Shown: in pieces, positions 19,289 through 22,800 of the stretch | How the letters are laid out: each line of letters starts with the position of its first letter | Position numbering within the stretch: the stretch's first letter is position 1 | DNA from: Polyangiaceae bacterium | Lineage (GTDB): Bacteria > Myxococcota_A > Polyangia > Polyangiales > Polyangiaceae | Direction: 5' to 3' | Assembly (NCBI GenBank): GCA_019637295.1 | Contig: JAHBVX010000009.1 | Coordinates: 124,001 to 188,000 of the forward strand | Length of the DNA stretch: 64,000 bases | Notes under the pieces: generated by a model | What the model was told of the DNA's origin: nothing | The model's input: only the letters and a program-made list of their open reading frames with translations | Database searches by the model: none | Position numbers and translations under genes: made by a program

Positions 19289-21388
19289 TCATCCGACCCG
19301 GACGGCGGCGGACAGGAACTCTTCGAACTTGGAGCGCGCGTGACGGGTCGGGCGCGTGGGGTAGCTGTAGGGTCGCGGGATGCCCTTGGAGTACAAGCAC
19401 AGCACCGCCGACTCGTAGCGAGTGGCGCGCTCCGCGATGCTGCCGAGTTCGATGGGCCGCCGGGCCAGCCCGTCCAGGGTGCTCGACAGCTGCGGGCAGT
19501 CACCGACGGTCGCCGGCAGCGAGCTCTCGGCGGGCGGGTCACAGCAGGCTTGGCGGATGACCGCGGTGGCGGCCAGGTCGAACCACGAGAAGGTCGACCA
19601 CAGTCGCATCCCGGGCGTCACCTTGCCCGCGCCGGAGACGACCAACCGCCGGTGGAGCTGGGAGGTGACGCCGCGCAGGTCGTCCGCGCGGCACAGGAAC
19701 GCGTAGTCCGTGCTCGCCGACAGGCTGCCATCGTCGAAGTGCGCGGCGACGCACTCTCCGAGGGAGCGCTTCGGAGCGGGCGGAACTGCCGGCGCGGCGC
19801 TCGGCTGCGTCGTGACCGGCAGGGCTGAGGCGGCCGAGCTTGGAGTTGGCGCGGGCGCCGTGTTGGGGGCCGGTACGGACGGCGCCGCCGCTCGGAGCTT
19901 GCCGGCTCGGGACGCGCGATGATTCAGGAACATCGCCACGGCGATGCCCACCGCGAGCAGCAGCACGATGACCCCGATCACGATCAGGGGTTTGCGGCCA
20001 CTCGAGCGCAGCGCCTTCTCTTCCGCCTCGGTCAGCGTGACCGACCCCGTCGGCAGCGGCTGAGTCGGCGGCGGCAGTGAGGTGGCTGGCGGAAACTGCG
20101 AGACCGGCGGCGGAAACGCCGCAGCCGGAGGGGGTTCCGGGGCGGGCGCGGGCGGAGCGGGGTGCGCGAGCTCCGCCTGCGGCGGCGCGGGCGTTGGCTC
20201 CGCGAGTGCCGCGTCAGCCGGCGCTGGACGCCGGGGTGGGGGACCGGGGTGAGCCGGCGCGTCGGGCACGACCGACTCGACGGCCTCGTACTCGACGCTG
20301 GCCGGCGGCGCCTCGGGCGTCGGCACACCGGACAGCTCGCTCGCAACCGCAGCAGCGTCGAGGGAGCCCTCAGCCGCCGCTATGGCTCGCTGCACCTCGA
20401 GCGGCTTGCTCATGATGGCCGTCGCGTCGTCCTCACCGGAGGCGCTGGGGGACTGCAGCGCGGGCGGCAGATCGCTGTCGACGCGCACCGGCGGAATGCT
20501 CGGTACCGGCTCGGGCGGACGAAGGCCCTTCGCGTGGGCGGCCGCCATCGCCTGTACGGAGCGTCCGCTGGCCACGATCGTGGCCTCTTCCTCGGGCCAC
20601 TCCCCGTCCTCCGGCGACCAGCTCTCGAGCATGGCGATCACCTCGGCGATGCCAGAACGCCGGCGCGCGAGGTCCGCGGTCAGGCCGCGCTCCACCAGGT
20701 CCGACAACACCGGATCCGAGACCCCTAGCGCGTCGAGGCGCTGCTGGCGGCCCCCCGCGATGCTGAGCAGCAGCTGGTCCTTCGTCTCTCCCTTGAAGGG
20801 CGGGCTGCAAGTCAGGGCCGCGAACAGCGTCGCGTGCAGCGCCCAAACGTCATCCACGGCGCTCGGACCGCGCCCTTGAAGGCGCTCCGGGGCGCAGTAC
20901 GCGCCGCTCGACGGGGCGACCAGCTGGGTGAGCACGGGCCCGGGCAGCTCCCCGGCTGGGGTCACGATGATGCTCCGCGGCGAGATGGCGCCGTGCACAC
21001 CCCCGCCCGTGTGCAGCGCGGCGAGCGCCTGCGCGAGGCGCAGAAACCAGTCCACGGCGAGGGCCGGCTCGAGCGGACCCCGCTTCAGCCGCTCGTGCAG
21101 GGTCTCGCCGCGGACGTGGGTGGCCACGGCGACCGCGCCCACGGGCTTACCGCCGAGCACGGCGGCGGCGTCTGGGTTCTCGATCAGGTCGAGCAGCGCA
21201 GCCAGGTGGGCGTGGCGGAGGCCCACGCTGCTCTTCAGCGCTTGGATTCGTGCACCAGCGAGCGCGGACACGATCACCTCGCGCCCCGCGCTGGTGTCGT
21301 CGGCGATCCACGCGATCGCCTTGGCCCCCGCCTGGAGGCTGTCTTTGTACCGGTACTTGCCGGCGAGCAATGCCGAAGGCGTCTGCAT
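19289..21388 (-). CDS. Transmembrane protein with an N-terminal pseudokinase domain
   Basis: A 699-residue protein. Residues 10-260 resemble a Hanks-type kinase: KYRYKDSLQAG at the start, LRHAHLAALLDLIEN, RLAQALAALHTGGG, APERLQGRGPSAVDDVWALH and DLARRRSGIAEVIAMLESW at the end. The catalytic residues are gone: HRDLKPxN is HGAISPRS (residues 133-140), DFG is replaced by TQL (about 154-156) and there is no clear ATP-binding Lys. A Pro/Ala/Glu-rich linker (about 290-450) precedes one TM segment (KPLIVIGVIVLLLAVGIAVA) and a C-terminal extracytoplasmic region with several Cys. It is divergent from an active kinase gene. Likely a scaffold or allosteric partner. Confidence 0.8.
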   Translation of the reverse strand: MQTPSALLAGKYRYKDSLQAGAKAIAWIADDTSAGREVIVSALAGARIQALKSSVGLRHAHLAALLDLIENPDAAAVLGGKPVGAVAVATHVRGETLHERLKRGPLEPALAVDWFLRLAQALAALHTGGGVHGAISPRSIIVTPAGELPGPVLTQLVAPSSGAYCAPERLQGRGPSAVDDVWALHATLFAALTCSPPFKGETKDQLLLSIAGGRQQRLDALGVSDPVLSDLVERGLTADLARRRSGIAEVIAMLESWSPEDGEWPEEEATIVASGRSVQAMAAAHAKGLRPPEPVPSIPPVRVDSDLPPALQSPSASGEDDATAIMSKPLEVQRAIAAAEGSLDAAAVASELSGVPTPEAPPASVEYEAVESVVPDAPAHPGPPPRRPAPADAALAEPTPAPPQAELAHPAPPAPAPEPPPAAAFPPPVSQFPPATSLPPPTQPLPTGSVTLTEAEEKALRSSGRKPLIVIGVIVLLLAVGIAVAMFLNHRASRAGKLRAAAPSVPAPNTAPAPTPSSAASALPVTTQPSAAPAVPPAPKRSLGECVAAHFDDGSLSASTDYAFLCRADDLRGVTSQLHRRLVVSGAGKVTPGMRLWSTFSWFDLAATAVIRQACCDPPAESSLPATVGDCPQLSSTLDGLARRPIELGSIAERATRYESAVLCLYSKGIPRPYSYPTRPTRHARSKFEEFLSAAVRVG

Positions 21389-21567
21389 GTCCGCCGCTCT
21401 GGAGCTTCCTGCGAAAGGCTCGCCCCGCTTTATAACAAGCTAGCGGCTGGGAACCGAAGTTTTCTCGCTGCAGCACGCGGCTCACCGTGTCAAAGTCGCG
21501 CTGGCGCGGTGGCTCCCACTCGCCCTTGCGAACCGGGTCCTCGGTCTGCGAGCATGAGAATTTGCCC

Positions 21568-22800
21568 ATGAGCCCAGCGCGATCGTCCCGCGAAGCAGCC
21601 GTCTCAGCCGGCGGTTCGGGCGAGCCTCCGCCGGAGGGACGGTACCAGCCTGGCCAGGTGATCGACGAGAAGTACGTGCTGGTGAGCAAGCGGGGCGAGG
21701 GCGGCATGGGCACGGTCTGGGTGGCTCACAACACGGTGCTCGACGTGCGCTGCGCCCTCAAGCTGATGGAAGTGGGATCGAGCGAGGGGTCTCGGGCGGT
21801 TGCGCAACGGGTCTTGGACGAGGCGCGCGCCGCGGCTCGCCTCGGACACGCCTCGATCGTGCGGGTGCTCGACTACGGCGAGACTCCGCAGGGGGATCCC
21901 TTCATCGCGATGGAGCTGCTCGAAGGCGAGGATCTCGCGCAGGTTCTCGAGCGGCAAGCGCGTCTCGAGTCCATAGCCGCCGTCCAGACCGTCCTGCCGA
22001 TCGTTCACGCACTCGCGTCGGCCCACGCCAAGGGGATCGTCCACCGCGACGTCAAGCCCGAGAACATCTTTCTCGCGCACGACGAGGTGACGAAGACGAT
22101 GCCCAAGCTGCTCGACTTCGGCGTCGTACGCATCGTGAACAACCCACGCAAGCTCACGATGGATGGCGCAGTGGTCGGGACCCCGGACTACATGTCGCCC
22201 GAGCAGGCGCGCGGCAAGACGACGACTGGGCAGACGGATCTCTGGAGCATGTGCATCGTGCTGTACGAGATGATCGCCGGCGTCCGTCCCTTCCAGGGTG
22301 ACAACTACAACGCGCTGATGCGCGCGATCATCGAGGACGAACCGCCAAGCCTGGCGCAGCTCGGCCTCGCCGACCCGAGCTTGTCTCAGATCGTGATGCG
22401 CGGGCTGAACAAGAACCCCAACGAGCGCTGGATGAGCATGCGCGAGCTCGGGGAGGAGCTCGCGTTCTGGCTCTCGGATCGGGGCGTCACCGAGGACATC
22501 ACCGGCGCGTCGCTGCGCCGCACGTGGCTCGCGGAGACGGACAGCCAGAAGATCGAGCTGCCGCCGGAGGTGGTAGCGCGCATCGCCGAGACAGTGCCTC
22601 CCATGCACGACCCCCAGTCCAGCGAGCCGAGTCTGGCGGCCATCGCCGAGATGAATCGCGGCGGCGATCCCGAGGAGTTGTTGCTTCGCGCCGACCGCCG
22701 TCGCAACGCCGCCATCGCGCTCGGTCTCATCGCGGGGGTCTTGTTCGTCGTGCTCGCGGTCTTGATCGGCACGGGTATCATCGTGCCGGGCACGAAGTAG
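21568..22800 (+). CDS. Membrane Ser/Thr protein kinase (Hanks type)
   Basis: A 410-residue kinase with a short cytoplasmic linker and one C-terminal TM helix (about 380-405, IALGLIAGVLFVVLAVLIGT). All catalytic motifs are present: glycine loop GEGGMGTV (43-50), ATP-Lys 65 in CALKLM, HRDVKPEN (159-166), DFG 183-185 and the activation segment VVGTPDYMSPEQA. The start at 21568 was chosen over an upstream Met at 21487 because the extra 27 residues are not kinase-like. It is divergent from the pseudokinase gene with 179 bases between them, which contain an AT-rich TATAAC at 21431-21436. Confidence 0.93.
   Translation: MSPARSSREAAVSAGGSGEPPPEGRYQPGQVIDEKYVLVSKRGEGGMGTVWVAHNTVLDVRCALKLMEVGSSEGSRAVAQRVLDEARAAARLGHASIVRVLDYGETPQGDPFIAMELLEGEDLAQVLERQARLESIAAVQTVLPIVHALASAHAKGIVHRDVKPENIFLAHDEVTKTMPKLLDFGVVRIVNNPRKLTMDGAVVGTPDYMSPEQARGKTTTGQTDLWSMCIVLYEMIAGVRPFQGDNYNALMRAIIEDEPPSLAQLGLADPSLSQIVMRGLNKNPNERWMSMRELGEELAFWLSDRGVTEDITGASLRRTWLAETDSQKIELPPEVVARIAETVPPMHDPQSSEPSLAAIAEMNRGGDPEELLLRADRRRNAAIALGLIAGVLFVVLAVLIGTGIIVPGTK

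Follow-up and report, generated by a model that had tools for sequence, protein, structure and literature searches.

The window analysed here, a stretch of 64,000 nucleotides from a Polyangiaceae genome (contig JAHBVX010000009.1, positions 124,001 to 188,000 of the forward strand), encodes a membrane pseudokinase of 699 residues and, divergently from it, a membrane kinase whose catalytic motifs are intact. Judged from sequence comparison and modelling, the 699-residue protein has kept the protein kinase fold and lost the catalytic chemistry, and it represents a stable, old pseudokinase family rather than a recently decayed gene. Three elements are firm: the family itself, its dead catalytic site and its outer domain without a clear match to known domains (hereafter EXT). 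Whether the pseudokinase acts together with the neighbouring kinase is a matter of graded probability, weighed below.

The protein is composed of a kinase-fold domain, a linker of approximately 210 residues, a single transmembrane (TM) segment, placed by hydrophobicity only, and an outer domain of approximately 156 residues. This layout, as well as the open reading frame (ORF) with its ATG start, agrees with a preliminary description of the locus. The match of the protein to the Pfam Pkinase profile falls slightly short of the cut-off (E = 2.5e-7; 30.8 bits versus 31.7). An AlphaFold2 (AF2) model of residues 1-270, based on 27 family sequences, adopts a kinase fold with a mean predicted local distance difference test score (pLDDT) of 89.5 and a predicted template modelling score (pTM) of 0.88. 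The best Foldseek match of this model is PknB (E = 2.5e-16), and its comparison with PknB in VIA gives a Z of 24.7 and a root-mean-square deviation of 3.3 over 246 residues. Both the model and the profile matches display the bilobal protein-kinase-like fold of the PF00069 superfamily.

The catalytic residues were verified in an alignment of 27 family domains with 15 active kinases. The 27 domains come from 57 mapped EXT proteins and were selected for a complete N-terminal domain whose loop and DDxW region were caught by a loose pattern; three live kinases, proteins missed by the pattern and any protein whose N-terminus is short or absent were excluded. Among the active kinases, the N-lobe positions are gapped in one row and alphaI in one; the first loop Gly is Ala in three rows, and the APE Glu is missing from one. 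In the window protein, the beta3 Lys is replaced by Ser, the alphaC Glu by Ala, the Arg and Asp of HRD by Gly and Ala, and the catalytic Lys and Asn both by Ser, while the DFG columns are empty; the Pro and Glu of APE, the Asp and Trp of alphaF and the Arg of alphaI are retained. This is a property of the whole family: the beta3 Lys, the alphaC Glu, the HRD Arg and Asp, the catalytic Lys and DFG are absent from all 27 domains, the catalytic Asn is kept in a single one, and HG stands in place of HR in 26. Conversely, the structural positions are preserved (APE Pro in 26/27, APE Glu in 23/27, alphaF Asp and Trp in 27/27, alphaI Arg in 26/27). The distance from the position of the HRD Asp to the APE Glu is 30-35 residues in the family versus 46-57 in active kinases, i.e. 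approximately 17 residues shorter. These results confirm the loss of HRD, DFG and the ATP-binding Lys within a conserved fold outline, as first described, and add to it the loss of the alphaC Glu and a deletion around DFG; the Lys of VAIK, the Asp of HRD and the Asp of DFG, whose joint loss defines a pseudokinase, are all gone. Catalytic losses shared across the family, together with retained structural residues, indicate that the domain has been selected as a protein and is not decaying.

The outer domain is equally well delimited. In 55 aligned sequences, five Cys residues of EXT are invariant and a sixth is nearly so; the window protein has no other Cys C-terminal to its TM segment, and three disulfides are likely. 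The AF2 model of EXT consists of eight helices (pLDDT 96.1; pTM 0.91). No significant Pfam match was found for the 55 sequences (best E = 0.023, in one of them), and a structure search of the PDB gave no convincing match with Foldseek (best E = 1.7). The best VIA match, FolT (Z 4.9; 105 residues; 4.8 Å), lies within the level of unrelated helical models.

A sample of 289 genomes spread evenly over the class contained 32 with an EXT match (E ≤ 0.001), of which 31 come from the taxonomic family to which the window belongs; matches in two of the 32 (G112 and G152) are weak and interrupted by stops, and are probably false. A search of 108 genomes of that family gave 32 at E ≤ 1e-25. Relatives of the 699-residue protein in public genomes belong to Myxococcales, Polyangiaceae, Polyangia or Deltaproteobacteria metagenome-assembled genomes, kinases of other phyla being matched as well. 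In total, 77 loci were mapped (57, then 20 further), including second copies and some loci cut by contig ends. Inspected by eye, approximately 45 of the 57 encode a dead kinase domain before the TM segment, three a live kinase and nine no kinase domain, four of these nine being cut by a contig end. The features defining the pseudokinase family, EXT after one TM segment and an HG-type dead loop before it, are all present in the window protein. The three live versions (L101:6847-8742, L106:6663-8525 and L130:6526-8625) possess HRD and DFG and score 139-156 bits with Pkinase; EXT heads thus go with kinase signalling. The EXT tree, whose root is unknown, is compatible with a single origin of the live-kinase version.

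The window genome (7.65 Mb in 25 contigs) gave 151 protein-kinase matches from 190 candidates (150 scored). It has a second EXT copy on another contig (L009:7362-8933; 523 residues). This copy has no Pfam match at E 0.01, so that Pfam-based surveys would overlook members of this sort. The copy belongs to a second type of EXT pseudokinase (also L088, L094, L100 and L103) that lies near a recurring gene set, whose products we take, by eye, to be a MoxR ATPase, a DUF58 protein and von Willebrand-type proteins.

The neighbouring kinase scores 148.3 bits with Pkinase and has kept GEGGMG, ALK, HRDVKPEN and DFG. Its chain stops approximately four residues past its TM segment, and it therefore has no outer domain. 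The ORF opens with GTG (437 residues), an in-frame ATG at 21568 being the likelier start (410 residues); counted from this ATG, 179 nt separate the two start codons. The intact motifs bear out the earlier picture of a catalytically active membrane kinase, and the geometry fits its transcription from the same spacer. A scan of the spacer for sigma-70-type promoters found none, in an organism for which this consensus informs little, and the spacer sequence is weakly conserved across the two genera that have the pair. Taken as a statement of ancestry, the initial wording of a pseudokinase ‘divergent from an active kinase’ does not hold. Indeed, within its own genome, the pseudokinase matches its partner with 39.0 bits and two other kinase places with 46.5 and 39.6 bits, so that the partner is not its nearest relative.

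Orthologues of the kinase were sought in 38 genomes, 28 of them taken from the 32 that have EXT and ten lacking it. Besides the window genome, four genomes (G001, G116, G102 and G175) have one, with 65-75% identity; in the others, the matches listed do not exceed 54% identity, and for ten genomes no match passes the 1e-60 cut-off. In each of the five genomes that have the kinase orthologue, the orthologous pseudokinase is encoded divergently to it. They represent two genera, g1 (two of its two genomes) and g9 (three known genomes, each listed through its EXT match). In a tree computed with a quick method from 87 of the 104 kinase rows found, those omitted being mostly lower-scoring, the five paired kinases group together as a single clade (SH-aLRT 96). 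In the four other genomes, the gene order is 5'-nucleotidase (TIGR02244, PF05761), pseudokinase, kinase and release factor 3. The window retains both outer genes (nucleotidase at 7804-9183, release factor 3 at 32096-33679), but other genes, spanning approximately 10 kb and 9 kb, now separate them from the pair, and none is inserted inside it; the window is the single case of gene turnover on both sides. Relocation of the pair as a unit was considered and dropped, since both former neighbours still flank it within the window; the other genes must therefore have come to lie outside the pair. With this linkage in two genera, a regulatory pair is plausible.

Several observations weigh against such a pair, and they feed the strongest alternative, in which the pseudokinase works by itself as a membrane scaffold or sensor and the kinase, as an unrelated gene, is part of a conserved syntenic block. 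We regard this stand-alone alternative as tentative too, and as almost as probable as the explanation preferred below. In G083 and G205, the corresponding locus has the pseudokinase with glucose-6-phosphate isomerase where the kinase would be, and G250 has there, between nucleotidase and release factor 3, a related kinase (L203:8785-10785; 50-53% identity), which groups with the pair clade at SH-aLRT 85, without the pseudokinase. In G293, the pseudokinase shares a 15-kb stretch with release factor 3 and has no kinase beside it. More generally, no such kinase is seen next to 72 of the 77 mapped loci, some of which are cut by contig ends, and the neighbours shown at the 20 further loci include no kinase at all (0/20). 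A kinase neighbours EXT genes at seven of the 57 loci (105 neighbour slots), five of these being the orthologous pair and two co-directional. With the five orthologous loci counted once, three events remain in 105 slots, a number that a 3% background readily yields by chance (P = 0.61; local background 20 of 560 ORFs, pair kinases included), the uncollapsed seven reaching P = 0.04 only; we thus gave up adjacency, being at chance level, as evidence for the pair. Moreover, since the block from nucleotidase to release factor is itself conserved, the pair in the four other genomes may reflect ordinary synteny. The live kinases bearing EXT, finally, are not sisters of the partner kinase in the tree; they lie outside the 46-row group holding the partner clade, and a Rosetta-stone argument from these fusions was rejected. 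Against the stand-alone alternative stand the maintenance of the pair in every genome where the kinase orthologue was found (five genomes) and the window itself, where other genes part the pair from both old neighbours and leave it unsplit. Within the genomes searched, the divergent arrangement accompanies the kinase orthologue but does not extend to the other family loci, and the pair, although plausible, is not obligate.

In the two co-directional cases, the pseudokinase gene is followed by a live kinase gene approximately 120 bp (L118:6795-9151, the kinase being cut by the contig end) and 40 bp (L129:6731-9127) away. These are possibly independent pairings, at a frequency expected by chance.

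Within its otherwise variable sequence, the linker of the window protein displays two acidic-Thr motifs, EEEATIVAS and EDDATAIM. Acidic residues preceding Thr favour PknB-type kinases. Counterparts exist in all five paired proteins, L079 having one by the pattern and one looser; elsewhere, the pattern occurs in 2 of 12 unpaired group-A proteins, 1 of 26 measurable group-B proteins (14 more had no measurable linker) and 3 of 20 later loci. When each paired sequence was shuffled 2000 times, p ranged from <0.0005 to 0.029; these values are optimistic because the pattern was drawn up after inspection of the paired proteins, which are themselves related. The pattern is absent from both kinase-less proteins of the same locus, which are part of the 12 group-A proteins; this distribution speaks for the explanation preferred below. 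As a mark exclusive to paired proteins, the motifs were dropped: L222, L223 and L226 also have them.

Our preferred explanation, held tentatively, is that the 699-residue protein is a non-catalytic membrane receptor-scaffold that docks on a Ser/Thr kinase and is phosphorylated by it at the linker. The outer domain would bind an envelope signal, and the pseudokinase domain would dock on a Ser/Thr kinase, most likely the neighbour in g1 and g9; in relatives without a neighbouring kinase, it could use other kinases. Docking would change the activity of the kinase or aim it, and the kinase may phosphorylate the acidic-Thr motifs, which FHA-domain proteins could then read. The window genome has 69 FHA matches, and candidate phospho-readers therefore exist. 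The mode of action would resemble that of MviN, PknB and FhaA, the best precedent. A wider reading, which we consider unlikely, would recognize here a new receptor class: a six-Cys helical sensor head of unassigned fold, carried mostly on dead kinases and on live ones in at least three proteins, the dead version lending its sensor in trans to an anchored, sensorless live kinase.

Two further alternatives concern the pseudokinase domain itself. It may have kept or gained another ATP-dependent chemistry, as in SelO or SidJ, rather than being a pure scaffold: the kinase fold is kept, and the prevalence of HG for HR gives the pocket region an unusual but conserved form. Yet the beta3 Lys, alphaC Glu and DFG Asp have disappeared from every aligned domain and the catalytic Asn from 26 of the 27, whereas SidJ is described as reusing its own ATP- and metal-binding residues (PMC12599244), which makes such a chemistry improbable here. 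A decaying paralogue without function, which the complete loss of catalytic motifs and the Pfam score under the cut-off might suggest, is hardly credible given 27 alignable domains from many genera with long open frames and shared motifs, and near-invariant Cys residues in EXT.

Table 1. Position of the pseudokinase, the kinase and their features in the window.
Feature	Position	Strand	Basis
Pseudokinase-TM-ectodomain protein, 699 aa	19289..21388	-	ORF; Pkinase 30.8 bits; catalytic residues lost
Pseudokinase domain, ~residues 9-258	20615..21364	-	AF2 model, kinase fold
Degenerate catalytic loop HGAISPRSI, replacing HRDxKxxN	20969..20995	-	Alignment
Linker motif 1, EEEATIVAS, candidate acidic-Thr phosphosite	20567..20593	-	Counterpart in 5/5 paired orthologues; putative function
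Linker motif 2, EDDATAIMSKP, candidate acidic-Thr phosphosite	20402..20434	-	Counterpart in 4/5 paired orthologues by pattern, in the fifth by eye; putative function
Single TM segment, residues 468-487	19928..19987	-	Hydrophobicity only
Extracytoplasmic six-Cys helical domain (EXT), residues 544-699	19292..19759	-	55-sequence alignment; AF2 model
Divergent intergenic spacer	21389..21567	.	Poorly conserved between two genera; consensus promoter not found
Membrane Ser/Thr kinase with intact catalytic motifs and without ectodomain; start probably at 21568	21487..22800	+	Pkinase 148.3 bits; orthologue in same arrangement in 4 other genomes
Kinase C-terminal TM segment, then ~four residues	22705..22785	+	By eye

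Around the pair, the window encodes directly downstream of the pseudokinase a DUF5701 protein (18565-19164, minus strand; 274 bits), where the four other pair genomes have the 5'-nucleotidase. Beyond the kinase, one ORF fuses a RidA-like (Ribonuc_L-PSP) domain with a GNAT acetyltransferase (22819-23658, minus strand), and another encodes a MutH-like protein (23745-24452, plus strand; PF02976, 110 bits), possibly a restriction-type relative. MutH is usually discussed in gamma-proteobacteria, a group to which this protein does not belong.

Bacterial pseudokinases are described as scarcely studied (PMC12599244), and the main text of this 2025 review contains no word starting with ‘myxo’. Within the library searched, titles and abstract openings on pseudokinases in myxobacteria, Polyangia and related subjects gave no description of an EXT pseudokinase family. 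The present family, from kinase-rich myxobacteria, has a confidently modelled outer domain to which no fold is assigned. Its paired, unpaired and live-kinase versions offer a natural comparison, by which the role of bacterial pseudokinases becomes testable.

Among known systems, the receptor Ser/Thr kinases of the PknB/PknA type are nearest to the window protein in solved sequence and fold and share its kinase-TM-outer domain layout, but the window protein has lost the catalytic residues and its EXT lacks a significant Pfam match. EcpK of Myxococcus xanthus has a fold other than the protein-kinase-like fold of the window protein. It is likewise a myxobacterial pseudokinase, but of the bacterial tyrosine kind (PMC12004946). 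EssB/YukC of type VII secretion is similarly described as a membrane pseudokinase with a degraded glycine loop and a short activation loop (PMC12599244); in contrast, a Pfam scan of six window proteins found no secretion gene, and EXT has no match. MviN was not among the best 60 of 1209 PDB profile matches, which PknB leads, nor among the listed Foldseek and VIA matches of the pseudokinase domain, an absence that excludes nothing; the likeness to MviN concerns its described features only. The membrane part of MviN is of the lipid-flippase kind. In Mycobacterium tuberculosis, MviN, of the ActPs3 family, is phosphorylated on its tail by PknB, whereupon FhaA is recruited (PMC12599244). As described in the same source, MviN also carries a carbohydrate-binding domain, where the window protein has one TM segment and the six-Cys EXT. 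The features described there for ActPs3/MviN, namely degradation of all three catalytic motifs, an activation-loop deletion and a C-terminal TM part in a membrane protein, are all found in the 699-residue protein.

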